This document shows, one piece after another, positions 18,475-55,850 of a DNA stretch of 64,000 nt; position 1 is the stretch's first letter, and each line of letters starts with the position of its first letter. Both the position numbers and the translations under genes were made by a program. The notes under the pieces were generated by a model. It saw only the letters and a program-made list of their open reading frames with translations. It was not told the DNA's origin and did no database searches. Source of the DNA: Leptolyngbya sp. KIOST-1 (lineage in GTDB: Bacteria > Cyanobacteriota > Cyanobacteriia > Phormidesmidales > Phormidesmidaceae); the NCBI RefSeq assembly GCF_000763385.1, contig NZ_JQFA01000002.1:930001-994000 (forward strand), read 5' to 3'.

Positions 18475-19134
18475 AAATCTACTGCGGAAGCGCCTTGTTG
18501 TACGTTCCGATGGACGATTCACTTTATTGAACGCCGAAGCCGCTACTGGGTGTCCACGATAGCGGGGCATAAGGACGAACTGCTGTTTCAGCGGGGGACC
18601 CAACAGGCCTGGTAGTGGGCCAAAGCCTGCTCGTTCATTCGCTGGTTTACTGACGGAGAACATCGCTATGCCAAGGCGTTATGGGACTTAGCTAGCGTCT
18701 ATTTGGCCCTGCGGGAGCGTCCCAGTCAGTATCGCACCCGAAAAGTCTGGCGGCATGGACTTGAAGTCGCCATGAAAATCAAAGGGTCTCAAGGTCTGCG
18801 GCCGGTTGTCTGGGTGAGGCCAGAGCATCCTTACACTGCGCTTAGCCCACTGGCTGAGGTGCATGCCAATCATAACGAGGCTCATAATGCAGCACTGAGG
18901 CGACGATGCAGCGCCTATCGTCGGCGTCAAAACCTCTATGCCAAAACCCAAGCCGGATTGCAGCGGGCCTTAGATGTCCAGCGGCTCCTCCACAACTGGG
19001 TCAAGCCCCATTGGGGTCTCGGCAAACGGACGACTCCGGCTATGGCGATCGGTCTTTGGCATCGTCCGCTATCTACTCAAGAAGTCCTCTGCATGAGAGG
19101 GTTTCAATGTATCTCCTCTTAGCAGACCAGTGCC
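18475..19134 (+). pseudogene. IS1-like transposase copy with one internal stop codon
   Basis: One reading frame runs from about 18475 to the stop at 19120-19122. It is interrupted only by TAG at 18613-18615 (QQAW*WAKACSFIRWFTDG), which probably replaces a Glu codon. Conserved parts are RRSRYWV, GHKDELLFQ, IRWFTDGEHRYAKALWDLAS, WRHGLEVAMKIKGSQG, EVHANHNEAHNAALRRRCSA and NWVKPHWGLGKRTTPAMAIG. The last ~115 residues match the 288-639 fragment. The terminal CAGACCAGTGCC ends at 19134. The left IS end is not recognisable; the frame begins directly after the tRNA-Pro remnant, so the 5' part is probably lost. Confidence 0.75.
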
Positions 19135-23603: not shown

Positions 23604-24860
23604 CTAAATGGCTTCAGCCCCTACCGTACCTGAACTTTTGGGATCCGGCAGCTTGGTCGTAATCAGCGCCGCCGCCAGCACAAACAGGCTCGACACCCAC
23701 AGGCAGCCCACCAGCCCAAACCACTGGTAAAACAAGCCTGAAGTAATCGTGCCCAGCAGCCGCCCGCCCGAATTGGCCATGTAGTAAAAGCCTACATTCA
23801 GCGACACATCCTTATCTTCGGTGTAGGCCAGCACCAGGTACGAGTGCACCGCCGAGTTAAAGGCAAACACTACGCCAAATACCACCAGCCCCCCCGTCAC
23901 CGCAATGTCGCCCCGCAGCCCCGACATCAGAGCGATGGCAATCAAAGCCGGAATCGCGGTGAGCAGGGATGTCCAAAACAGAATGGTTTTAGCCCGGGGC
24001 ACCACCTTGCCCGTGCGATCCTTACGCAGCAATTGCGGAGCCAAAAACTGCACAATGCCGTAGCCAATCACCCAGATGGCCATGTAGGTGCCCACCTGCA
24101 TAAAGGTCCAGCCCAGCACCTCGTACAGAAACACCGGCAGCGCCACCACAAACCACACGTCCCGCGAACCGAACAAAAAGAACCGCGCCGCCGAGAGAAT
24201 GTTGATCTCCTTGCTCTTAGAGAACAGCTCCCGGAACTGCACCTTCTTGCCGATTTTGCCCATGCCCGCCGGCAGCAGCGCCCCCGACAGCAAAATCACC
24301 ACCAGCACCGCCGCCTGAATCAGCAGCGCCGACCGAAAGCCCACCCACTCCAGCAGCGCCGCCCCGACGAAAAAGCCCACCCCCTTCAGCGCATTCTTTG
24401 ACCCGGTCAGCACCGCCACCCACTTAAACAGTCTCGACTCGGCCTCCTTGGGCACCACCAGGCGAATGGCGCTCTTCGAACTCATCTTGGTCAGATCTTT
24501 GGCGATCCCCGAAAACGCCTGAGCCACCATCACATAGCCCACCTGCACCGGCACCGCCCAGTCCGGGTTCAAAAAGCTCAGCATCCCCAGGGCGAAGACC
24601 TGTAGGGCGATGCCGCCGTAGAGGGTCTGCCGAATGCCAATCTGGGAGCCAATCCAGCCGCCCAGAAAATTCGTCACCACGCCGAACACTTCGTAGAAGA
24701 GAAACAGCATGGCGATCTCGAACGGGGTGTAGCCCAGCACGTGGAAGTGCAGCAGCACCAGCATCCGCAATGCCCCATCGGTGATGGTGAAGCCCCAGTA
24801 GGCGGCGGTGATGATCGCGTAGTTGCGCAGGCTCTCGGGTTTGAAGGTGGAGGAGGACAT
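23604..24860 (-). CDS. arsJ: Organoarsenical efflux MFS permease ArsJ
   Basis: A 418-residue major facilitator protein with about 12 helices. It begins MSSSTFKPESLRNYAIITAA, then YWGFTITDGALRMLVLLHFH. Helix 2-3 contains LFYEVFGVVTNFLGGWIGSQ, and FSGIAKDLTKMSSKSAIRLV is well conserved in ArsJ. ArsJ exports 1-arseno-3-phosphoglycerate, which breaks down outside to arsenate. The gene lies downstream of, and co-oriented with, a dedicated GAPDH that makes that compound. This pairing is the defining context and gives high confidence. The 133-base gap between them is filled with STRR units and a GGTGGGCA/TGCCCACC hairpin. Confidence 0.92.
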   Translation of the reverse strand: MSSSTFKPESLRNYAIITAAYWGFTITDGALRMLVLLHFHVLGYTPFEIAMLFLFYEVFGVVTNFLGGWIGSQIGIRQTLYGGIALQVFALGMLSFLNPDWAVPVQVGYVMVAQAFSGIAKDLTKMSSKSAIRLVVPKEAESRLFKWVAVLTGSKNALKGVGFFVGAALLEWVGFRSALLIQAAVLVVILLSGALLPAGMGKIGKKVQFRELFSKSKEINILSAARFFLFGSRDVWFVVALPVFLYEVLGWTFMQVGTYMAIWVIGYGIVQFLAPQLLRKDRTGKVVPRAKTILFWTSLLTAIPALIAIALMSGLRGDIAVTGGLVVFGVVFAFNSAVHSYLVLAYTEDKDVSLNVGFYYMANSGGRLLGTITSGLFYQWFGLVGCLWVSSLFVLAAALITTKLPDPKSSGTVGAEAI

Positions 24861-24861
24861 G

Positions 24862-24955
24862 GGGAAGGATGGGGTGGATGGGTAGGCGGGTGGATGGGTG
24901 GATGAGTGGATGGGTAGGTGAGGCTAGCTGTAGGGTGGGCATTGCCCACCAACGA
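24862..24955. repeat. GGATGGGT-type STRR array and a TGGGCA/TGCCCA hairpin
   Basis: GGATGGGTG and GGATGAGTG units run from about 24866 to 24920 between arsJ and its GAPDH. They are followed by GTAGGGTGGGCATTGCCCACC-type sequence (24931-24951), a short palindrome I recall as recurring in cyanobacterial genomes. Confidence 0.7.
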
Positions 24956-26657: not shown

Positions 26658-29600
26658 AGCCGCCGCCGCCCGGTGTGGCAATCTGAATGCAGTCCCCCGG
26701 TTCCACCGCCACGGTCGCCTGCCCCGGCAGCACCGCCACCCGGCCATCGGCACGGATCACCCGGTTTTCGCCCACCTGCCCTGGCTCGCCCCCGGCCAAC
26801 CCAAAGAGCGGCACCTGGCGGTGGTTGGAGAGAATCGCCGCCGTCATCGGTTCGCGAAACTCGATGGTGCGGACAATGCCGTTGCCGCCCGCAAACTCCC
26901 CTGCCCCACCGCTGCCCTGGCGAATAGCGAATTCCCTGAGCAGCACCGGGAAGCGCCACTCCAGCACCTCCGGGTCGGTCAGTCGCGAGTTGGTCATGTG
27001 GGTGTGAACCGCATCGGTGCCGGGGAAGCCGGGGCCAGCACCGGAGCCGCCGCAGATGGTTTCGTAGTACTGGTGGTGGTCATTGCCGAAGGTGAGGTTG
27101 TTCATGGTGCCCTGGGAGGCCGCGATCGCCCCCAAGGCCCCGTACAGCGCATCGGTCACCGCCTGGGACACCTCCACATTGCCCGCCACCACCGCCGCCG
27201 GATACTGCGGGTTCAGCATCGAGCCCTCGGGGATGACAATCTCCAGCGGCTTCAGACAGCCCGCATTGAGGGGAATGTTGTCATCCACCAGGGTACGAAA
27301 TACATAGAGCACCGCCGCTTTGCACACCGCCGCCGGGGCGTTGAAGTTGCTGGGCCGCTGGGGCGAGGTGCCCGCGAAGTCAATCCGGGCGCTGCGGGTC
27401 TGGCGGTTGACCGTGACCTGCACCGCAATCTGGCTACCGTCGTCCATGGGGTAGGTAAACTGGCCGTCCTGGAGGCGATCGATTACCCGCCGCACGCATT
27501 CCTCGGCGTTGTCCTGCACATGCTGCATATAGGTCTGCACGGTGTCGAGGCCGTAGTGATTCACCAGCTTTTGCAACTCCTGCGCTCCTTTCTCGTTGGC
27601 CGCAATCTGCGCCTGCAAGTCAGCGATATTCTGGGCTGGATTCCTCACCGGGTAGGGTGGGGCAGTCAGAATTTCCAGCAGTTCAGCCTCTAAAAAGCGC
27701 CCTCGATCCACCAGTTGAACATTGTCGAGCAACACCCCCTCTTCCTCAATGCTGGTGCTGTTGGAGGGCATGGAACCTGGGGTAATGCCACCGATGTCGG
27801 CATGGTGGCCGCGGGAGGCGACGTAGAAGAGTGGGCGGGTGGATGGGTGGATGGGTGGATGGGTCTTTGCCAAAAAGACGGGGGTGATTACCGTGATATC
27901 GGGCAGGTGGGTGCCGCCGTTGTAGGGGTTGTTTTGCAGGTACACGTCGCCGGGTTTGAGGCGATCTCCCCTAGCCTCAATCAAACTCCGCACGCTTTCC
28001 CCCATCGAGCCCAGGTGGACTGGAATGTGGGGGGCGTTAGCGACGAGTTGCCCGTGCTGGTCAAACACCGCGCAGGAGAAGTCCAGTCGCTCTTTGATGT
28101 TCACCGAGTAGCTGGTGTTTTGTAGCGCGATCCCCATTTCCTCGGCTACGGCGCGGAAGAGGTTGTTGAAGATTTCGAGCAGGACGGGATCGGGAGTGGG
28201 GGGTAGGGGGTGGGGGGTAGGGGGTGGGGGGGTGGTAGCGTGGGTTGAGCTAAATTCCACAGAGCCACGGTCCAGAATTTCCCCGCTGGCGAAACCCACG
28301 GAACCCGTCCGTGAAGCATCTTTCTTCAATATCAAATGGCCTTTGGTGGTTAGCTTTGCGTTCCAACCCGGTTCGATGACGTTGGTACCGGTGGCTTCGA
28401 TGATCAGGGCGGGGCCTGCGATCGCATCCCCCGGACACAAATCATCGCGGTGGTAAACCGGCGTCTTGTGCCATGCCTCGGCGGTGTAGACCGGGACGGT
28501 GGCTTTGGGCACCAGCGGAGTGGTGCGAGCCCTATCGATCTCTGGCTCCTCGGGGCTGTGGGTGTGGCCGATCACCTCCACCGCTGCCGTATCGACGATC
28601 AGGCGCTTACCCTCCTGGGCAAAGCCGTAGCGCTGGCGGTGCAGGGCGGTGAACTGCGATCGCATCGCCTCCACCCCAGCAAAATCCACCGCCAGCGCCG
28701 AATCCGTTCCTTCGTACTTCAGCAGCAACCGGGGCAACACCTCTGGCGATTTTGGATTTTGGATTTTGGATTTTGGCTCGTCCCCGACCGGGAGGGGCAG
28801 GGGTGGGTCTGCCGGAGACCTTGAATTTTGAATTTCAAACCCCTGCTGACTCAGTTCATCCAATCCCTTGCTAATCAAAGCCTCCACCACCCGCTGGAGC
28901 TCAGGCAGCGTACCTTCCTCCAGGGGCAGCTCCACCGATCGCTCATTCAGCGACCTGACATCCGCCAGCCCCATGCCGTAGGCCGACAGCACCCCGGCGT
29001 AGGGGTGTAGAAACACCTCCGTCATGCCCAGGGCATCGGCAATTAAACAGGCGTGCTGGCCCCCGGCCCCGCCAAAGCTGCACAGCACGTAGTCCGACAG
29101 GTCGTAGCCCCGCTGCACGGAGATTTTTTTGATCGCGTTGGCCATTTTCTCTACTGCGATCGCCAGGAACCCAGCCGCCACCTGCTCCGGGCGGCGCACA
29201 TCCCCCGTGGCCGCCTGAATCTCCCCCGCCAGGGCCGCGAATTTCTCGCGCACCACCGCCCCATCCAGGGACAGATCGCCCCCCGGCCCAAACACCTGGG
29301 GGAAAAACTCCGGCTGGAGCTTGCCCACCATCACATTGCAGTCGGTCACCGCCAGGGGGCCGCCGTGGCGGTAGCAGGCCGGCCCCGGGTAGGCCCCCGC
29401 CGACTCGGGCCCCACCCGGTAGCGGCTGCCGTCAAAGCTGACAATCGAGCCGCCCCCCGCCGCCACGGTGTGGATCGCCATCATCGGCGCTCGCAGCCGC
29501 ACCCCGGCCACCTCGGTTTCAAAGGTGCGCTCGTACTCGCCCCGGTAGTGGGACACATCGGTGGAGGTGCCACCCATGTCGAAGCCGATCATGCGATCGT

Positions 29601-35616: not shown

Positions 35617-35676
35617 ACTTGATTGGTAACCTTCTCCTGGAACTGTCATTGGTTAGCCGCCAAACGCTCAGAAAGC

Positions 35677-35759
35677 AAGGGTTACAGCCCCTAGCCTGTC
35701 ATTTGGGGCGGGCGTGGCTGGGCTTGAGAGCATCGGTCGTTTAGCCACAATTGATGACA
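35677..35759. repeat. Dispersed palindromic repeat, copy R1
   Basis: Module A, AAGGGTTACAGCCCCTAGCC (35677-35696), is followed about 44 bases later by module B, TTTAGCCACAATTGATGACA (35740-35759). The same two modules occur at 40.5, 44.2 and 54.4 kb. The remainder of the 35568-35888 gap shows no gene. Confidence 0.7.
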
Positions 35760-35888: not shown

Positions 35889-36494
35889 ATGGTGCCTTTC
35901 TTCAAAGCCGCCGCTGAAGTCGATACCGAAACTAAGATTTTGCAGGCGGCGCTCAAGCTGTTTGCCAAGCGGGGGTACGGCGCTACCACCACGCGCGAAC
36001 TGGCCCAGGTAGCGGGGGTGGCGGAGGGCACGCTGTTTCGCCACTTTGAAAACAAGAAAGCCATTCTGGTCGCGGTAGCCAGCCAGGGCTGGGTCGAAAT
36101 TCTCACCGACCTGCTCACCGAACTGAGCGAAATGGCCAGCTACAAGGCAATTGGCCAGGTGATGCAGCGGCGGATGCTGAATCTGCAAAAAAATTCGGCC
36201 CTGATGCGGGTGTGCTTCATGGAGGCGCAGTTTCACCCCGAACTGCGGGAGCAGATTCAAACCGAAGTGATCGGCAAGATGATCGACGTGGCCGAGGCCT
36301 TCTTTCAAACCGCCATGGATCGCGGCGTCTACCGTCCCATGAACGCCCGTATGGTGGCGCGGGTGTTTTTGGGCATGTTTACCGTCGCCGGTTTCAGCCA
36401 GGACACCCTCGGGGACGAAGCTGCCTCGCCCCAGTCGATGAAAGACCTGGCGGAATGTTTGACGGATATTTTCCTGAACGGGGTGCTGGCCTAG
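35889..36494 (+). CDS. TetR/AcrR-family transcriptional repressor
   Basis: A 201-residue regulator. The N-terminal DNA-binding domain has TKILQAALKLFAKRGYGATT TRELAQVAGVAEGTLFRHFE and the usual NKKAILVAV continuation. The ligand and dimer domain (about 65-201) is typical in length and contains ARVFLGMFTVAGFSQDTL. It starts at the ATG at 35889. The target is unknown; there is no divergent partner with a shared promoter. It lies downstream of the formaldehyde genes on the same strand, separated by a terminator and a repeat. The following 92 bases to the convergent GST gene are STRR units forming an inverted pair. Confidence 0.92.
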   Translation: MVPFFKAAAEVDTETKILQAALKLFAKRGYGATTTRELAQVAGVAEGTLFRHFENKKAILVAVASQGWVEILTDLLTELSEMASYKAIGQVMQRRMLNLQKNSALMRVCFMEAQFHPELREQIQTEVIGKMIDVAEAFFQTAMDRGVYRPMNARMVARVFLGMFTVAGFSQDTLGDEAASPQSMKDLAECLTDIFLNGVLA

Positions 36495-36586
36495 GGGAGT
36501 GGGTGGGTAGGTGTGTGGATGGGTAGGTGCTGGCTATACTCAGCCCCCACTCACCCAAGTCACCGACTCACCCACACCACCCTCGC

Positions 36587-40278: not shown

Positions 40279-40496
40279 ACCGTTGTCACCACACGCACAG
40301 GCAGTTTATTCTCCCACGACTGTTGGCCCTAGGGGGCGATCGCGCCCCAATCAGTTTTGCAAGGTTGGGCGAGGTTGGGGGCCAACCCCTCAATGCTGGG
40401 GGCATCAATCGGTTGATGGATGAGAGCCCCCAGGGCGTGTTATCCATTGGGGCCAAAAGCCTGGCCTATTGAGCCTTGCCACGCCCGAGCTAAAAG

Positions 40497-40560
40497 ACAG
40501 GCTAGGGGCTGTAACCCTCAATTTTCAAGCGTTTAGCCGCTAATTGATGACAGCCCCTAG
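40497..40560. repeat. Dispersed palindromic repeat, copy R2
   Basis: ACAGGCTAGGGGCTGTAACC (module A reversed, from 40497) and AATTGATGACAGCCCCTAG (module B, ends 40560) form terminal inverted arms CTAGGGGCTGT/ACAGCCCCTAG around a ~36-base core. The last bases include the TAG stop of the CAP-domain gene (40557-40559 on the minus strand). The rest of the 40279-40496 gap has HIP1-type and C-rich sequence but no gene. Confidence 0.75.
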
Positions 40561-41150
40561 AGGGGACGCATAAACAGCTGGGTGAAGTAGTAAGTATTGT
40601 CCCGCTGCCACACCCCCACCCCCGTTTCGGTAAAGCCCGATCGCAGGATGTTTTCCCGGTGGCCGGGGCTATCCATCCAGCCCTGCACCGCCAGGGGAGC
40701 GGGGTCAGGGGCATTGGTGCTGGTGAACAGGTTTTCCCCCACCATTGCGTAGGAAATATTGGCCGCTGACACCCGTTGGGCTGGCCCATCCCCGGCGGGG
40801 CTGACGTGGCTAAAAAAGTTTTCGTCGGCCATCCGCTGGCTGTACTGGCGGGCCACCTCAGCCAACGGTCCGTTGGGCTGTAGGGGGGCGAGCCCTGACC
40901 GCTGGCGAATCTCGTTGATGCGCTCGTACACCAGGGTCTCCATATCGACCGTCGCCGATGACTGTGCCCCGGCGGCATCTGGCGCGGTGGGCGGCTCCCG
41001 CCCGATGCGGGTGACCGGGGGAATGCGCTCCACCAGTTGCTCTAGATCGGCGGGTTTGCACCCGACCAGGGCCAGGGCGATCGCTATCAACCCGGCGACT
41101 GGCAGCGCCCTGTCCGCCCAAGGATGGGCAAAATACTTTGGAATAGGCAT
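40557..41150 (-). CDS. CAP-domain (SCP/PR1) lipoprotein
   Basis: 197 residues from the ATG at 41150 (MPIPKYFAHPWADRALPVAG). The hydrophobic stretch LIAIALALVGC ends in a lipobox Cys. A ~40-residue Pro-rich linker precedes the CAP domain (about 70-197), with ERINEIRQRSGLAPLQ, FFSHVSPAGDGP, ISYAMVGENLFTS and the signature MDSPGHRENILRSGFTETGV. It is probably an outer-surface or periplasmic lipoprotein; bacterial CAP proteins have been linked to cell wall and calcium, without a firm role. The stop codon is supplied by dispersed repeat R2. Confidence 0.88.
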   Translation of the reverse strand: MPIPKYFAHPWADRALPVAGLIAIALALVGCKPADLEQLVERIPPVTRIGREPPTAPDAAGAQSSATVDMETLVYERINEIRQRSGLAPLQPNGPLAEVARQYSQRMADENFFSHVSPAGDGPAQRVSAANISYAMVGENLFTSTNAPDPAPLAVQGWMDSPGHRENILRSGFTETGVGVWQRDNTYYFTQLFMRPL

Positions 41151-50013: not shown

Positions 50014-51633
50014 TTGGCTCCCCTCCCCCTCTCCGACGAAACGCTGTTGTTTGAACCCGCCGCGCCCCACGACGAGGCGCTGGCGGTGGTGTTCGCCTTT
50101 CCCAACCAGTACACCGTGGGCATTACCAGCCTGGGCTACCAGGTGGTTTGGGCGACCCTGGCCCGCCGGGCCGACGTCAGCGTCAGCCGGCTGTTTACCG
50201 ATGGCCACGAGCCGCTGCCCGCGACGATTGATGTCCTGGGGTTTTCGCTGTCCTGGGAGCTAGACTACGCCAACCTGCTCACCCAGCTGGAAACCCTAGA
50301 CATTCCGATCTTTGCCCAGGATCGCAGCGACACCCACCCCCTGGTCTTTGGCGGCGGCCCGGTACTCACCGCCAATCCTGAGCCCTTTGCCAACTTTTTC
50401 GATGTGATTTTGCTGGGGGACGGCGAGACGCTGCTGGATGATTTCTTTGACGCCCTAGTTGAGCTAAAGTCTGCCTCCCGTGCTGAAACCCTGCGACATC
50501 TGACGAAGGTGCCGGGCCTTTATATCCCGTCGCTATACAGCGTTACCTACGATGGGCCGACCGGTGGCATCAGGGCGATCGCGCCCCTGGAGACCGACAT
50601 TCCCGCCACCGTGCAAAAGCAGACCTACCGGGGCAACGTGCTCTCGGCCTCGACGGTGGTCACCCCCCACGCCGCCTGGGAGAACATTTTCATGGTCGAG
50701 GTGGTGCGCAGCTGCCCCGAGATGTGCCGCTTCTGCCTGGCCAGCTACCTGACGCTGCCGTTTCGCACCGCCAGCCTGGAGGAGTCGCTACTACCCGCCA
50801 TTGAGCGCGGGCTGGCGGTGACCAATCGGCTGGGGCTGCTGGGGGCGTCGGTGACCCAGCACCCCGAGTTTGAAACCTTGCTGGACTATTTGAACAAACC
50901 CCAGTTCGACGACGTGCGCCTCAGCCTGGCCTCGGTGCGCACCAACACCGTCACCCCAAAGCTGGCCGAAACCCTCACCCGCCACGACAGTCGCTCGATC
51001 ACGATCGCGATCGAGAGCGGATCGGAGCGGGTGCGCCAGATTGTCAACAAAAAACTCGAAACCGACGACATTGAGCATGCCGCCGTCAACGCCAAAGCCG
51101 GGGGCCTCAGCGCCATGAAACTCTACGGCATGGCGGGGGTGCCGGGGGAAACCATGGCCGACCTGGAACAAACCGTGGCCCTGATGCTGCGGCTCAAAAA
51201 GGCAGCCCCCGGCCTGCGCCTGACCCTGGGATGCAGCACCTTTGTGCCCAAGGCTCACACCCCCTTCCAGTGGCGCGGGGTAAATCCAGAGGCTGAAAAA
51301 CGGCTCAAGTACCTGCAAAAGCACCTGCGCCCCAAGGGCATTGACTTTCGGCCCGAGAGCTACAACTGGTCGGTGATCCAGGCCTTGATTTCGCGGGGCG
51401 ATCGCCGCCTTGCCCCCCTGCTCGAACGGGTGCGCCACTACGGCGACTCCCTGGGCAGCTACCGCCGCGCCTTCAAAGATTTTCAGGGGCAAATTCCACC
51501 GCTGGAATACTACGTCCACGAGGACTGGGATCTGTCCCAGCCGCTGCCCTGGGACCATCTGCTGGGACCACTGCCCAAAGCCACCCTACAAAAGCATTTT
51601 GAGGCAGCGGGGGTGGAGGCGGTGGCAGTGTGA
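50014..51633 (+). CDS. B12-binding-domain radical SAM protein
   Basis: A 539-residue protein. The only usable start with a stop codon just upstream (50002) is TTG at 50014. The N-terminal cobalamin-binding-like domain (about 20-170) contains PNQYTVGITSLGYQVVWATL and LVFGGGPVLTANPEPFANFF, DVILLGDGE. The radical SAM core has the cluster motif VVRSCPEMCRFCLASYLTLP, GxIxG-like SGSERVRQIVNKKLETDDIE and MKLYGMAGVPGETMADLEQT. This is a widespread cyanobacterial radical SAM family without an agreed substrate; it resembles the N-terminal half of TIGR03960-like proteins. Confidence 0.88.
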   Translation: MAPLPLSDETLLFEPAAPHDEALAVVFAFPNQYTVGITSLGYQVVWATLARRADVSVSRLFTDGHEPLPATIDVLGFSLSWELDYANLLTQLETLDIPIFAQDRSDTHPLVFGGGPVLTANPEPFANFFDVILLGDGETLLDDFFDALVELKSASRAETLRHLTKVPGLYIPSLYSVTYDGPTGGIRAIAPLETDIPATVQKQTYRGNVLSASTVVTPHAAWENIFMVEVVRSCPEMCRFCLASYLTLPFRTASLEESLLPAIERGLAVTNRLGLLGASVTQHPEFETLLDYLNKPQFDDVRLSLASVRTNTVTPKLAETLTRHDSRSITIAIESGSERVRQIVNKKLETDDIEHAAVNAKAGGLSAMKLYGMAGVPGETMADLEQTVALMLRLKKAAPGLRLTLGCSTFVPKAHTPFQWRGVNPEAEKRLKYLQKHLRPKGIDFRPESYNWSVIQALISRGDRRLAPLLERVRHYGDSLGSYRRAFKDFQGQIPPLEYYVHEDWDLSQPLPWDHLLGPLPKATLQKHFEAAGVEAVAV

Positions 51634-51730
51634 CAGCGAGGAGCCTAGAGCACCGGTTCAGTATGGCTGGGATCTCGAATCTGCCACCGCGGGGTCTACA
51701 GAGCTTTAATGATTCCTTGGCAGAACAGAG

Positions 51731-51841
51731 GTTTAAACCGATGATCGATCCCTCCTTTCCGTCGGGTCCAGGGCGGCGGAACGCCCCTGGTCGACGGGGG
51801 TCTGGGGCCAGCGACATGGCCCCAGTAGCATCTTGGGCTTA
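51731..51841 (+). ncRNA. Structured repeat element, copy A (possible RNA)
   Basis: This matches the minus strand of 55596-55711 without insertions or deletions across about 110 bases. It starts at GTTTAAACCGATG. Hairpin 1 is CCAGGG...CCCTGG (51768-51790). Hairpin 2 is CTGGGGCCA-GCGACA-TGGCCCCAG (51802-51825). Between the copies, two base pairs of hairpin 2 change on both sides (C-G to T-A and T-A to G-C), keeping the stem. It lies ~100 bases after the radical SAM gene. The same strand is also open as a peptide frame, so RNA is the favoured but unproven reading. Confidence 0.5.
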
Positions 51842-52161
51842 GCACCGCAGTTGTGGCTCGCGTGCCCCAACCTCGCTGAAACACAAATACTGTACCGATG
51901 CTCTAGCTCTCTCCGCTGGGATCCGCCGGGGTCGAGCTGGTAGCGGAGCTGGGCCTTTCGACTCAATGTCGCAGGTGTTAGCTTGGCCAGGGCGCTTAAG
52001 TTAAGAACTAGGTGTCTGTGGCAAAACCTGGGACAGCGCTCTGGCAAGGCCAGTGCAGCCAGGAGGGCTGCCACAGTGAGTCGGTTGCTCCAGAGCTGGG
52101 GCTGGGCGACGACGCTGAGGAACTGGAAGTCTTGTTGGTCATATTCCTGCTTTACCGACAC
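51842..52161 (-). other. Possible small gene downstream of the pentapeptide protein
   Basis: A minus-strand frame opens with GTG at 52161, overlapping the pentapeptide gene stop by 10 bases. It reads VKQEYDQQDFQFLSVVAQPQ, then LWSNRLTVAALLAALALPER and RHLVLNLSALAKLTP. Its codons have the high-GC third positions of real genes for about 70 residues. It then runs into repeat element copy A and loses that character. It may be a truncated gene or chance. I recognise no family. The region 51634-51730 shows nothing else. Confidence 0.25.
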
Positions 52162-52658
52162 CCCAGGCTGTCTCTGGTCGAGATCCCAGTCACTTCATTC
52201 ACCCCATCGGCGTACTTACACATCTGAGCCACCTGGAAGCGATCGATAATCGCCCCCGAAAAGTCGGCCCCAGTGATGTTGGCCTCGCTAAAGCTGCTGC
52301 TGGTGAGCAGGGCCTCGGTAAAAATGGCATTGGAGAGGTCAGCCCCGTCGAAAATGACGCGATCGGCAAAGGTGCGCGACAGGTCTGCAAACGATAGGTT
52401 GGCCCGCAAAAATGAGGCCTTGGTCAGAATAGTTTTGCTCAGGTTGGCTTTTCTAAAATTGGCCTCCCGCATTTCTGCCGCCGCAAAGGAGGTGCCCGAG
52501 AGCTGCTTACCGGAAAAGTCGCGGAAGCTGAGGTCGGTGAGGGTGTAGTCCACTGTGTTGTCCTGGGCGTAGGCGGCGGGAGCAATGCCGAGCCACCCGG
52601 CAATCGCGATCACCAGCGTACAGACGACAGCGAGGGCTTGGGGGAGAGTGAAGAACAT
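52152..52658 (-). CDS. Exported pentapeptide-repeat protein (lumenal type)
   Basis: 168 residues from the ATG at 52658 (MFFTLPQALAVVCTLVIAIA), where a Sec-type signal ends AAYAQD. The upstream frame lacks character. About fifteen pentapeptide units follow (for example LSFRDFSGKQLSGTSFAAAE, MREANFRKANLSKTILTKAS, FDGADLSNAIFTEALL). The end QVAQMCKYADGVNEVTGIST RDSLGCR, with its Cys pair, is typical of thylakoid-lumen pentapeptide proteins. It forms a right-handed beta helix; its role is unknown. Confidence 0.85.
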   Translation of the reverse strand: MFFTLPQALAVVCTLVIAIAGWLGIAPAAYAQDNTVDYTLTDLSFRDFSGKQLSGTSFAAAEMREANFRKANLSKTILTKASFLRANLSFADLSRTFADRVIFDGADLSNAIFTEALLTSSSFSEANITGADFSGAIIDRFQVAQMCKYADGVNEVTGISTRDSLGCR

Positions 52659-52823
52659 AGCTGGGGCAACCGTAAAAGGGGCAAGGGGGCCAAAGCGTAC
52701 CCAGCCAACCATCGCGCTAGATTGCAGTTGGCCCGCCTTGCTCATCCTACAAAGTTTTAAGCCAAGTTTTGGAACCAAGTTTTGGAGCCAAGCTGCGAGG
52801 GGAAGTGCAGAAAAATGATGGCA

Positions 52824-53243
52824 TCAAAGCATAGTGGCTAGGGCAGTTCGCAGGGAATCTGGCAGGCGGCGCAGCACCCGCCGGGTTTTGACATCCACTG
52901 GGGCCAGGGTCACGCTGCCCTCAAGGCAGGTTTCCTGAGTGGCAGCGTTTTGAATGTCGTAGAACCACAGAAAGCGCACGCCTCTGGCGGGCTCCAGACG
53001 GGCTCTAACCAGGGCGGTGTCGCCCAGGGCGAGCGATCGCCGGTACTTGAGCCCCAAATCGACCACGGGCAGGTCCACCCCGGCTTTGACCCAGTCGGCA
53101 AAGGTCAGCCCGCACTGGGCCAGATAGTTGACCCGCGCTTCCTCCATCCAGGCGATGTAGGTGCCGTGCCAGACAATCCCGGCGTAGTCCGTGTGGTGGG
53201 GCTGCACCACAACCCGGTGCTCATACCAGCGAGAAGGTTCCAT
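52824..53243 (-). CDS. Hotdog-fold acyl-CoA thioesterase (YbgC/4HBT type)
   Basis: A 139-residue enzyme with the catalytic loop QPHHTDYAGIVWHGTYIAWM EEARVNYL, where Asp of TDYAG is the general base of 4-hydroxybenzoyl-CoA-type thioesterases. Later YRRSLALGDTALVRARLEPA and the C-terminal ETCLEGSVTLAPVDVKTRR are typical. In cyanobacteria one member of this fold makes phylloquinone (DHNA-CoA thioesterase); I cannot decide whether this is that enzyme. Starts at the ATG at 53243. The 238 bases upstream to uspA hold no gene. Confidence 0.85.
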   Translation of the reverse strand: MEPSRWYEHRVVVQPHHTDYAGIVWHGTYIAWMEEARVNYLAQCGLTFADWVKAGVDLPVVDLGLKYRRSLALGDTALVRARLEPARGVRFLWFYDIQNAATQETCLEGSVTLAPVDVKTRRVLRRLPDSLRTALATML

Positions 53244-53481
53244 TAATCCACGTATCGGCCCGACTGAGGACAGACTCTACTACAAATTATGAATTGCGCC
53301 AAAATAGGCCCAAAACCAGTGCCTATGATGATTGAGAACACCTTAACTCACGTTTATATCCCGTTGATCCGATGGTCTGAGCCGGTCACATGCAGCATGA
53401 GTTGGAATCCTGCAATCACCGTTGCGGTTTCAGCCGTGCAGTTGAGCCCCTTGCCGTCGAGCGCAACCCTACGAGGACATC

Positions 53482-54336
53482 ATGATAGAAAAAATTCTTT
53501 TGGCCGACTCTGGCACTGGTAACACCGAAGCCATGATGAAGGCGCTGATGGACATTCCCCTGGTGCAGCGGGCTTCGGTCACGGTGCTGCACGTGGTGCC
53601 CTCTCAGGTGTCCGCCGAGACCATGGCCGAGCGCTGGGAAGCCGGGGGTCGCACTCTGGCTACAGCCATTACCAATCTCAACCTCGATCCCGGTCGGGTA
53701 AATGCGGTGCTGCGGGAGGGCGACCCCAAGGATGTGGTGATTCAGGTGGCCGATGAAGTCGATGCCGACTTGATCATCATGGGGTCGCGGGGGTTGCAGG
53801 GGCTGAAGGCGATTCTTGAGAATTCAGTCAGCCAGTACGTATTTCAGCTGTCGTCGCGGCCCATGCTGCTGGTTAAAGACGACCTCTACAGCATTCGCCC
53901 GATCAAGCGGGTGATGGTGGCGATGGACAAGTCGGACTCCGCTCGGGAGGGGCTGAACATTGCCATTTCGCTGCTGCGCGATGTCAAGGGCAGCGAGATT
54001 ACGCTGGTACACACGGTGTCGAGCCTCAAGACCAAGCCCTTTGACGTCGCCAGCACCGACCCCAGCCAGGACCCGATTTTGACCAATGCCCTGGCCGAGG
54101 TGAAGCGCTACGGCATCGACTACAAGCTTGCCGCCCCCGAGGGCAAGCCCGGCCGCCGCATCTGCCAGCTGGCCGAAGAGCGCAACATGGATTTGATCAT
54201 CCTGGGGTCGCCCGATCGCCGTCCTACCATTGCTAAGGGTTTACCCGATTTAGACAAGGTGCTGGGCGAGTCGCTGACCGACTTCGTACGGGTGTATGCC
54301 CCCTGCCCGGTGCTGCTCACCCGGATGGCGGGCTAG
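53482..54336 (+). CDS. Universal stress protein with two UspA domains
   Basis: A 284-residue tandem UspA protein. Domain 1 (about 1-140) has MIEKILLADSGTGNTEAMMK, VLHVVPSQ and IIMGSRGLQGLKAILENSVS QYVFQLSSRPMLLVKDD, with the G-2x-G-9x-G(S) ATP loop. Domain 2 (about 145-284) has KRVMVAMDKSDSAREGLNIA and IILGSPDRRPTIAKGLPDLD, LGESLTDFVRVYAPCPVLL. It binds ATP and is probably induced in stress. The TAG stop (54334-54336) is part of dispersed repeat R4. Confidence 0.93.
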   Translation: MIEKILLADSGTGNTEAMMKALMDIPLVQRASVTVLHVVPSQVSAETMAERWEAGGRTLATAITNLNLDPGRVNAVLREGDPKDVVIQVADEVDADLIIMGSRGLQGLKAILENSVSQYVFQLSSRPMLLVKDDLYSIRPIKRVMVAMDKSDSAREGLNIAISLLRDVKGSEITLVHTVSSLKTKPFDVASTDPSQDPILTNALAEVKRYGIDYKLAAPEGKPGRRICQLAEERNMDLIILGSPDRRPTIAKGLPDLDKVLGESLTDFVRVYAPCPVLLTRMAG

Positions 54337-54461
54337 GGGCTGTCGTCACCTGGCCTCTGACTAGTCCAAGCATTAAGGGTCACAGCCCTGGCCTGTTTTT
54401 GAGCGCTGGCGCGGCAACGCTGCTATAAAAGGCTTTGGCCAGAATTGATGACAGCCCTAAG
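54331..54461. repeat. Dispersed palindromic repeat, copy R4 (long form)
   Basis: It starts GGCTAGGGGCTGTC (54331-54344) at the uspA stop codon. Module A AAGGGTCACAGCCCTGGCCT follows at 54375, and module B AATTGATGACAGCCCTAAG ends at 54461. It has the same module order as R1 at 35.7 kb. The rest of the gap to 54687 is AT-rich upstream DNA of the heme oxygenase gene, with no gene seen. Confidence 0.7.
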
Positions 54462-54687
54462 CCCATGGGCGGCGCAATTGTTTCCTTAGAAAAACAGAGT
54501 TTTGGTAACAGCTTGTAAAAATTCGTAATAGAAACGGTCGACAAATCGGTCTAACTTAAACAAATGTGGCCGTTGTAATGGCAAGTTAAGGCTCTCTCAG
54601 GTTTAGGGCCAAGCTGGCCTGAGTTGGCTAACCAAAACTCTGCTTAAATTTCACCGTTTAAATTCACCCTAGAGCGAGACAGTCAGC

Positions 54688-55404
54688 ATGAGCAGTAACC
54701 TATCCACCGAGCTGCGCGAAGGCACCAAGAAAGCCCACACCATGGCCGAAAACATGGGCTTTGTACGCTGCTTTTTGCGGGGCGTGGTTGAGAAGAACTC
54801 TTACCGCAAGCTGGTGGCCAATTTTTATTACGCCTACGCAGCAATGGAAGAAGAGCTGGAGCGCCACAAAGATCACCCTGTTGTCTCCAAAGTCTACTTC
54901 CCTGAGCTACACCGCAAGGCCTCTTTGGAATCTGACCTGGCCTATTACTACGGTCCCAACTGGGCAAACGAAATTGCCATGACCCCCGGTGGTCAGCGCT
55001 ATGTCGATCGCATTCGTGAGGTAGCCAATACCCAGCCCGAGCTGCTGGTCAGCCACTCCTACACCCGCTACATTGGCGACCTGTCGGGGGGACAAATTCT
55101 CAAGGGGATTGCCCAGCGGGCGATGAACCTCTCCGAGGGTGAGGGCACGGCGTTCTACGAGTTCCCCGAAATTTCTGACGAGAAGGCGTTTAAGGCGAAG
55201 TACCGGGAGTCGATGGATGCGGCCCCGGTGGATGAGGCCATGGTGGCCAGCATTGTGGAAGAGGCCAACGATGCCTTTGGGTTGAACATGGAGATGTTCA
55301 AGGAACTGGAGGGGAACCTGATTAAGGCGATCGGTCAGATGCTGTTCAATACGCTGACCAGCCGCCGCCGTCGGGGCAGCACCGAGCTGGCCACCGCCGA
55401 GTAG
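54688..55404 (+). CDS. ho1: Biliverdin-producing heme oxygenase
   Basis: A 238-residue soluble enzyme that opens heme to biliverdin IXalpha using ferredoxin; it is the first step of phycobilin synthesis. The proximal heme His is in LREGTKKAHTMAENMGFVRC FLRG. The distal helix is SYTRYIGDLSGGQILKGIAQ RAM with its kinked Gly-rich segment. ANFYYAYAAMEEELERHKDH and FPELHRKASLESDL are typical of plant and cyanobacterial HO1. It starts at the ATG at 54688. A 14-bp hairpin with a T tract follows 44 bases after the stop. Monocistronic. Confidence 0.96.
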   Translation: MSSNLSTELREGTKKAHTMAENMGFVRCFLRGVVEKNSYRKLVANFYYAYAAMEEELERHKDHPVVSKVYFPELHRKASLESDLAYYYGPNWANEIAMTPGGQRYVDRIREVANTQPELLVSHSYTRYIGDLSGGQILKGIAQRAMNLSEGEGTAFYEFPEISDEKAFKAKYRESMDAAPVDEAMVASIVEEANDAFGLNMEMFKELEGNLIKAIGQMLFNTLTSRRRRGSTELATAE

Positions 55405-55448
55405 GTTCGCTGAGGCTACAGCTCAGGTTCCTATATTCGATTACCGTG

Positions 55449-55487
55449 TTGAGGAAGCGACCGCAGGTCGCTTCCTCAATTTGTTTT
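55449..55487 (+). terminator. Rho-independent terminator of ho1
   Basis: TTGAGGAAGCGACC (55449-55462) pairs perfectly with GGTCGCTTCCTCAA (55466-55479) over a 3-base loop, followed by TTTGTTTT. Confidence 0.95.
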
Positions 55488-55595
55488 GGACCGCAGGGTG
55501 CATAACGCTCAGGCGAGGCTTCGCCAACGCGCAGGGATGCACCGCTGGGGTAATTTGCCTAAGCGATAACCTGCGGAGTCAGCATTGAGCGATGG

Positions 55596-55711
55596 GTAAA
55601 AGCCAGATCTACTGCTGGGGGCGTTTCGATTGGCCCCCAGCCCCCCTCGACCAGGGCCGTGCCGCCGCCCTGGACCCAACGGAAAGGATTGACCTGCCAT
55701 CGGTTTAAACT
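55596..55711 (-). ncRNA. Structured repeat element, copy B (possible RNA)
   Basis: Read on the minus strand from GTTTAAACCGATGG, it aligns gap-free with 51731-51841. Hairpin 1 is CCAGGGC/GCCCTGG (55651-55673) and hairpin 2 is CTGGGGGC/GCCCCCAG (55615-55640). Compensatory changes relative to copy A keep hairpin 2. It lies between ho1 and lnt, with both neighbours on the opposite strand. The remaining parts of the 55405-55850 gap carry a CTTCGCC-type palindrome (about 55515) and the lnt promoter. Confidence 0.5.
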
Positions 55712-55850
55712 TCTGTATTGCCAATTGGCTAGTTGATGCCTCTGGTTAGGCTAAAGCGGAGCACCGTAGTGGACACTGCCCACCACTTGGGCAGGGAAAC
55801 TGTCAAAGCACTACCCTGGTAGGGTAAGCGACTTAGCTAGATTGGGGTGC

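Follow-up and report, generated by a model that had tools for sequence, protein, structure and literature searches.

Repetitive extragenic palindromic (REP) sequences are short, strand-specific hairpins with a conserved foot, which in one group carries a GTAG tag (PMC3733652, PMC6006769). In bacterial interspersed mosaic elements (BIMEs), which are intergenic and dispersed, REPs stand around other conserved sequence, behind genes and in both orientations (PMC6006769, PMC3733652). In a REP doublet (REPIN; see also PMC3116915), which unites two hairpins within one short repeat, the two REP copies stand in inverted orientation (PMC6006769). REPs inverted on both sides of a REP-associated tyrosine transposase (RAYT) gene are a described arrangement (PMC6006769). 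Miniature inverted-repeat transposable elements (MITEs) of the IS630/Tc1-mariner kind are a further point of comparison; the IS630-type element ISY100 inserts into TA with duplication of the TA (PMC2170065). The subject of this report is a two-hairpin element that occurs twice in a 64,000-nucleotide (nt) window, the whole stretch of DNA analysed, from the cyanobacterium Leptolyngbya sp. KIOST-1. The window comprises positions 930001–994000 of contig NZ_JQFA01000002.1 (C2) in a genome of 6.32 Mb, and window coordinates are C2 coordinates minus 930000.

By its own foot sequence the element is not a REP, and it appears to resemble the inner part of a BIME. Compared with a BIME, this inner part is large (approx. 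165 nt), has two covarying hairpins and is kept at orthologous sites, and its flanking REPs point in the same direction where those of a BIME are inverted. True GTAG-tagged REPs often adjoin the element, whose own hairpins lack a GTAG or CGTC tag and have the foot GGTC in most copies. The two hairpins differ in their stem sequences and follow each other in direct order, which separates the element from GTAG-tagged REPs and REPINs alike. With structured families in Rfam it shares covarying hairpins and a wobble bias towards one strand, but no Rfam family matches it. Some copies lie in a MITE with approximately 20-bp terminal inverted repeats (TIRs) and, in most of them, TA at the ends, like those of the IS630 kind; the MITE is merely a carrier, and other copies are without such ends. 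The favoured explanation, given a probability of about 0.5, is an ancient BIME-like structured repeat that probably spread along with REPs and is now kept by selection on the fold of its single-stranded plus strand.

A dispersed family with two classes of copies

The features of the element in the window are as follows.

51717–51841, plus strand: conserved core of copy 1 (5' block, hairpins 1 and 2, 3' tail), one of 41 genome copies
51717–51746, plus strand: 5' block of copy 1, TTGGCAGAACAGAGGTTTAAACCGATGATC; its TTTAAAC positions are each kept in 100–103 of 103 distinct genus copies, and it also reads TTGGCA-N17-GATGAT
51759–51797, plus strand: hairpin 1 of copy 1, inner arms 51768–51775 and 51782–51790, loop GCGGAA at 51776–51781; from covariation
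51802–51825, plus strand: hairpin 2 of copy 1, arms CTGGGGCCA and TGGCCCCAG, loop GCGACA; from covariation
55601–55724, minus strand: conserved core of copy 2, flanked by a heme oxygenase gene and an LNT-type gene, at a site shared in 13 genomes
55651–55682, minus strand: hairpin 1 of copy 2; from orthologue alignment
55615–55640, minus strand: hairpin 2 of copy 2; from orthologue alignment

A sequence-only reading of the window had described two blocks, 51731–51841 (plus) and 55596–55711 (minus), as a two-copy structured element with two adjacent G/C-rich hairpins. This observation is confirmed, and its interpretation is partly supported. Position and opposite strands agree with a repeat search of the window (arms 51717–51810 and 55631–55724, 83% complementary) and with the placement by a covariance model (51717–51839, plus; 55601–55724, minus), and both hairpins are present in both blocks. 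The genes, assigned by Pfam, place copy 1 after a radical-SAM gene. With copy 1 as query against the whole genome, 53 matching pieces are found, some of them halves of a single copy; copy 2 is recovered at E = 1.6e-22 and is therefore not a chance match. The count of two is wrong. A covariance model (R1) built from 21 own-genome copies finds 41 copies at E <= 0.01 in this genome, and 44 matches at E <= 1, so that the window pair belongs to a dispersed repeat family with dozens of copies and is not a lone two-copy RNA.

The repeat is so far confined to one cyanobacterial family (f1), that of Nodosilinea and its allies. Matches to R1 occur in 25 of the 57 genomes searched as relatives, the own genome included, and, under stricter filters, in 36 of 388 sampled genomes of the class and 8 of 159 genera, all of them in that family. 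The own genus is represented by 26 genomes: 14 carry 12–24 copies, KIOST-1 carries 41, five carry 1–7 and six have none at threshold. A pattern scan of named genomes returned 26 stretches; the sources are Nodosilinea nodulosa PCC 7104 and three other Nodosilinea, Phormidium tenue FACHB-1052, Tildeniella torsiva, the filamentous cyanobacteria CCP3, CCT1 and CCP5, and three cyanobacterial metagenome-assembled genomes. One exact pattern, used to look for carriage by phages, had no match in viral contigs. The sequence-only reading knew of no named RNA of this form, and Rfam agrees: no family reaches its gathering score in the window, and in four loci searched at E <= 5 the five hits fall outside the elements. 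Among the papers listed by literature searches, with subscription journals mostly outside their coverage, none describes this repeat in its title or abstract. Elhai and others have reportedly worked on very small cyanobacterial repeats.

Copies fall into two classes. Class a copies are carried by the MITE; the own genome has 22 with this label, of which three are diverged, and window copy 1 belongs here. Class b comprises the non-MITE copies, including window copy 2, which in the own genome are without MITE ends; all copies of two sister genomes, G012 and G008, are assigned to class b with their MITE ends left unchecked.

Fold and folded strand

Across 103 distinct copies from the genus, all with cores 120–125 nt long, conservation extends from approximately 25 nt before the core to approximately 20 nt after it, which makes the unit about 165 nt long. 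In most copies, including those of two other genera (G033, G029), both hairpins have the foot GGTC and a GCGRAA loop; the commonest loop of hairpin 2 in the family is GCGAAA. Pairing was assessed in two alignments. Alignment A4 holds 97 matches from 90 loci, 95 of them distinct; A5 has 79 distinct rows, none of them an own-genome copy, hence none used for the model. In A4, 90.6% of cells are paired, 16 pairs show two-sided change, and two-sided changes fill 148 cells, where shuffles give 41.6 and sliding the partners gives no more than 58. In A5, 88.2% of cells are paired and 12 pairs show two-sided change, in 149 cells; here shuffles give 59.1 and slid partners 34 or fewer. Covariation thus goes beyond chance in both, as expected of a structured RNA. 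Examples from A4 are columns 174/192 (CG 60, GC 29, AU 3), 175/191 (CG 79, GC 9, UA 5), 64/113 (CG 59, AU 30, GC 3) and 63/156 (CG 65, GC 24). Both inner hairpins covary strongly; pairing reaches 96% in inner hairpin 1 and 97% in hairpin 2. The outer helix of hairpin 1 is weak (74% and 66% of cells paired in A4 and A5), and beyond its first outer pairs no helix is claimed.

The proposal of selection on structure is therefore strongly supported by covariation among homologues, the check that the sequence-only reading had named, and by the wobble bias described below, well beyond two copies. One piece of its evidence has to be replaced. The two double changes quoted for hairpin 2 (C-G to T-A, T-A to G-C) are present in the ungapped columns of copies 1 and 2, but they reflect a one-base register shift. 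When 10 copy-2 orthologues are aligned, both pairs, C-G and T-A, prove to have been displaced by one column and not replaced; in copy 2 and seven or eight of the orthologues, the CT of the CTGGGG arm stands one column ahead of its place in copy 1, L093 and L069. The genuine compensatory change in hairpin 2 is that of an inner C-G to a G-C pair, at columns 174/192 of A4.

Which strand folds can be read from wobble pairs. When the C of a G-C pair changes to T, the pair persists as a G-U wobble on the plus strand of the element, whereas the same change on the other strand yields A-C. Across the inner stems of 170 distinct matches, leaving out the loop-closing pair of hairpin 2 (b9) and a poorly aligned pair (a6), G-U occurs 45 times and A-C 9 times. 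The ratio is 16 to 2 in copies that run in the same sense as tandem neighbours and 12 to 2 in copies that run opposite to them. This bias is evidence against cruciforms, and also against hairpins that function in any mRNA in which they happen to lie. The evidence favours, as the folded form, the single-stranded plus strand, RNA or DNA, whichever way the neighbours run.

The strand asymmetry also bears on a double-stranded DNA site, in which palindromes would be bound by protein or extruded as cruciforms, for example in chromosome packing. Two features suit such a site: the 5' block is imperfectly palindromic about TTTAAA and its pairing does not covary, as expected of a protein site, and the hairpin-2 loop is reverse-complemented in two copies, a change that would cost a cruciform nothing. 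Asymmetric stem wobble and loops that are conserved and non-palindromic in most copies speak against it, and it is judged very unlikely. The reversed loops are at L011 (element 1501–1625) and L024 (498–619), with a third, weaker case at L025, and point to inversion within palindromes.

Inserts of at least 8 nt were counted 19 times, by a covariance search that detects copies with stem inserts less easily. Nine lie in the hairpin-1 loop; nine further inserts are placed by the model at the base of the hairpin-1 3' arm (positions 72–73) and by eye start after TCG, in the linker; the remaining one, in the truncated fragment L179, is of doubtful meaning. Hairpin-forming nested inserts of two kinds, one in the hairpin-1 loop (..GCGCCCCAGTAGGGGCG) and one after hairpin 1 (TAGGCCGNAGGACGYGCGRAGC), occur in many class a and class b copies (e.g. 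L023, L028, L033).

An open peptide frame on the element strand had been offered as the alternative to RNA. Frames of 70 and 71 amino acids do span copies 1 and 2, respectively, but the open frame is not kept among homologues. In 123 cores without long inserts, length is 122 nt in 55, 123 in 41, 121 in 12 and 124 in 7, and stops interrupt frame 0 in 81, frame 1 in 102 and frame 2 in 118. Indels and stops rule out a peptide gene, and the chance of a conserved short peptide is negligible.

The main rival is a family of RNA genes: multicopy genes for a small RNA, each with its own promoter in the 5' block (TTKGCA-N17-GATGAT and a free discriminator), a start just before TCCTTTCC and a two-hairpin transcript acting in trans. 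The equal wobble bias in both neighbour directions and the constraint at orthologous sites described below would follow from it. The 5' block also has a suggestive shape, since in the 103 copies GCAGAACAGAGGTTTAAACCGATGATC is nearly invariant, the next six bases, at the discriminator position, vary, and TCCTTTCC is nearly invariant again. A scan of 51600–55800 for sigma-70-like sites finds a sole match, exactly at the 5' block of copy 1; 1.5 such sites are expected by chance, however, and the scan finds none at copy 2. At the copy-2 locus GATGAT is absent from 10 of 11 sequences, six of which read GATGGC, and G033 and G029 have not preserved the block. For these two reasons the promoter remains a lead. 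Moreover, the most conserved bases lie in the spacer, not in the hexamers, no hairpin has a run of U directly after it, and a dozen to forty loci are many for one small RNA. This explanation is regarded as possible, with clearly less than even prospects. A third hairpin in the 5' block was considered and rejected: its arms match at 10 of 15 positions by eye, but pairing over 110 copies is near the column expectation.

Orthologous sites, REP clusters and the MITE

Many copies occupy shared sites. In G012, 11 of the 15 copies examined (16 found) share locus and orientation with an own copy; in G008 this holds for 7 of 17, one of them on a single flank only. A partner in one or both of these genomes exists for 14 of the 19 own class b copies. 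Constraint was compared in 17 orthologous pairs with both flanks matched (own versus G012 or G008). With gaps excluded, identity is 88.7% in the core (1742/1964), 64.2% in the rest of the spacers (1453/2263) and 82.5% in neighbouring genes (12650/15341), and the core stands above the spacer in 17 of 17 pairs, once by just 87 to 86. A tree built from 31 copies requires 11 locus changes (minimum 7, shuffled 18.1) against 23 genome changes; the copy-2 locus forms one side of a branch (86/85), and several other loci are mixed. Grouping by locus and core identity together indicate that many copies descend with their locus and that the core is held from change. Gene conversion is rejected as the cause of conservation, as copies group by locus, though it is possible at single loci (locus 127 is mixed).

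By simple gene calls, 70 of the 73 copies in the three genomes (own, G012 and G008) lie within spacers. The 49 class b spacers comprise 22 tandem with the element in the same sense, 19 tandem with it opposite, 8 convergent and none divergent; class a spacers comprise 7 tandem, 12 convergent and 2 divergent. Background spacers of at least 150 nt number 77 tandem, 18 convergent and 51 divergent. Orthologues are counted more than once in these placement counts, and four of the wider set of 170 matches were called divergent. Such a position behind genes, with 0 of 49 divergent, would be expected of a block at mRNA 3' ends, an exonuclease barrier or terminator that acts in cis whichever way it faces, a role proposed for REPs elsewhere; the hairpins can form from both strands. 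On that account copies opposite to their neighbours should show more A-C than G-U, the reverse of the 2 and 12 observed. A terminator-like hairpin already stands between the upstream gene and the element at the copy-2 locus, and a barrier needs neither conserved loops nor a 5' block. A role of this kind is unlikely. A recurrent neighbour gene was sought as an autonomous partner and rejected: the loci of own, G012, G008, G033 and G029 genomes mainly repeat what are presumably ABC ATPases, a common family.

Copy 2 is part of a REP–element–REP cluster; a recent MITE carries copy 1 as its cargo. The neighbouring features are these.

55448–55480, plus strand: terminator-like hairpin after the heme oxygenase gene, separate from the element; from a scan and orthologue alignment
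55493–55543, plus strand: type II REP palindrome (GTAGGGTGCAT..ATGCACC; tag here GCAG) with a nested palindromic insert; the GTAG tag is intact in most orthologues
55766–55784, plus strand: type I REP palindrome (GTAGGGTGGGCASTGCCCACC), partly decayed here; from orthologue alignment
51646–51905, plus strand: MITE carrying copy 1, with TIRs at 51646–51664 and 51887–51905 (TAGAGCAYCGGTWCAGTAT) and TA at both ends

In 13 genomes the copy-2 locus reads heme oxygenase gene, terminator-like hairpin, type II palindrome (decayed in some), element in reverse, type I palindrome and LNT-type gene. Two sister genomes, G005 and G001, have the same gene order and neither element nor intact REP in the spacer. 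The nested insert, a palindrome of approximately 25–30 nt (AACGCTCAGGCGAGGCTTCGCCAACG), is present at window 55504–55530 and in L194, L195 and L196 and absent in nine others; it is a clean block, a very small palindrome nested in the type II REP.

The association with REPs extends to the family. In the three genomes, 25 of 51 class b copies (34 matches) have exact GTAGGGTG no more than 260 nt away, as do 3 of 22 class a copies, orthologous loci being counted more than once; the background is 0.037 per 640 bp. On a relaxed match, a REP lies no further than 300 nt from 76 of 116 distinct copies of the genus, and on both sides of 28 of them (background 0.049 per 600 bp); many copies, not all, therefore show the BIME pattern of REPs with an inner motif. 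Type I REPs are mostly upstream (35 to 16) and type II mostly downstream (46 to 15). Of the exact tags, 33 of 34 share one relative orientation, on the strand opposite the element, so that the flanking pairs are direct, and the inverted pair that is the basic unit of a BIME is not found. A scan for Y1 (RAYT-type) genes covered 31 distinct loci of the genus. Type I and II REPs flank the gene on both sides, inverted, at three of them (L292, L294, L295, in three sister genomes), and three more loci have a single REP match. A direct RAYT partner of the element was rejected from a search of 30 Y1 loci, the two weak matches (E 0.003 and 0.005) at L283 being unrelated C-rich repeats. Beside the RAYT-like genes of the own genome, AGATCCCAGGGTT..AACCCTGGGATCT palindromes stand on both sides at L304 and downstream at L283; these perhaps represent a second REP-like family.

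Class a copies share an outer sequence that ends in TIRs (TAGAGCAYCGGTWCAGTAT). The 19-mer TIR has 41 genome matches at up to three mismatches and its reversed control has 1. Eight class a copies are 95–98% identical to copy 1, from which recent spread inside the MITE follows. TA is found at both ends of most class a copies; the corresponding G008 spacer is too diverged to show the joint. The seven DDE_3 (IS630-type) loci of the own genome include none within 3 kb of the 41 inverted-repeat matches, and an own IS630-type transposase is accordingly rejected as the source. Three unpaired inverted-repeat matches were viewed: a short, core-less MITE version at L220, one at L240 beside a DDE_Tnp_1 transposase, and one with no transposase noticed. 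At eight MITE copies (L118, L120–L122, L131, L140, L144, L150) a predicted gene ends 68–69 nt before or 64–65 nt after the core. The terminal TAG of the MITE falls at that gene end, as if insertion at a putative CTAG stop codon had spared the gene.

The window holds other repeats: G-rich arrays that advance in steps of 8 bases (GGGTGGAT-like) at 24847–24936, 27804–27885 and 36480–36545, an inverted pair at 35634–35724 and 40472–40562 (91 nt, 77%), and a direct repeat at 287–586 and 18782–19081 (300 nt, 83%).

Origin and maintenance of the repeat

The history that would join these results has the following stages. (i) The repeat would have spread in ancestors of the genus, probably along with REPs; RAYT-type HUH transposases can cut and rejoin REPs as single-stranded hairpins and may have mobilised it. 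(ii) Copies would have survived almost solely in spacers behind genes. (iii) One sublineage would later have been re-dispersed inside an IS630-like MITE. (iv) The single-stranded plus strand, as transcript or lagging-strand DNA, would fold into the twin hairpins. (v) A putative protein would bind these through their feet and loops, and binding would preserve both the fold and the old copies.

Several results weigh against this explanation. Pair b9 counters the wobble bias (A-C 14, G-U 0), largely from the copy-2 locus, which accounts for 10 of 11 such cells in A4 rows; with b9 and a6 included, the totals become 57 G-U and 23 A-C. The aligned rows are related, so that the counts are not independent events. 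When gaps are scored as mismatches, the core at 69% is no better than coding flanks at 72%, with spacers at 44%. The REPs are not an obligatory part, as 26 of 51 class b copies are without an exact GTAGGGTG nearby and 40 of 116 without a relaxed REP, and their distances vary from 15 to 145 nt, so that they could have arrived beside the element independently. At 30 of the Y1 loci, where the element itself was searched, no credible match was found, and the two Y1 genes of the own genome are without type I or II REPs, other palindromes adjoining them. Lastly, constraint at fixed sites exceeds what a spent mobile repeat would need.

A bolder combination would have a promoter-bearing small-RNA gene once caught in REP transposition units and fixed at a dozen or more sites as a redundant regulatory RNA, the near-invariant UCCUUUCC at its 5' end pairing with ribosome-binding sites. 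This is speculative and rather doubtful.

Short palindromic repeats are usually regarded as decaying selfish DNA. The REP-linked repeat described here has strong covariation and a one-strand bias, and across the genus it is better kept than the rest of the spacers it occupies. Whether REP-type mosaics gain host functions thereby becomes directly testable in culturable strains. Should the reading as a promoter-bearing small RNA prove true, it would mark a path by which selfish hairpin repeats became a family of regulatory RNAs.

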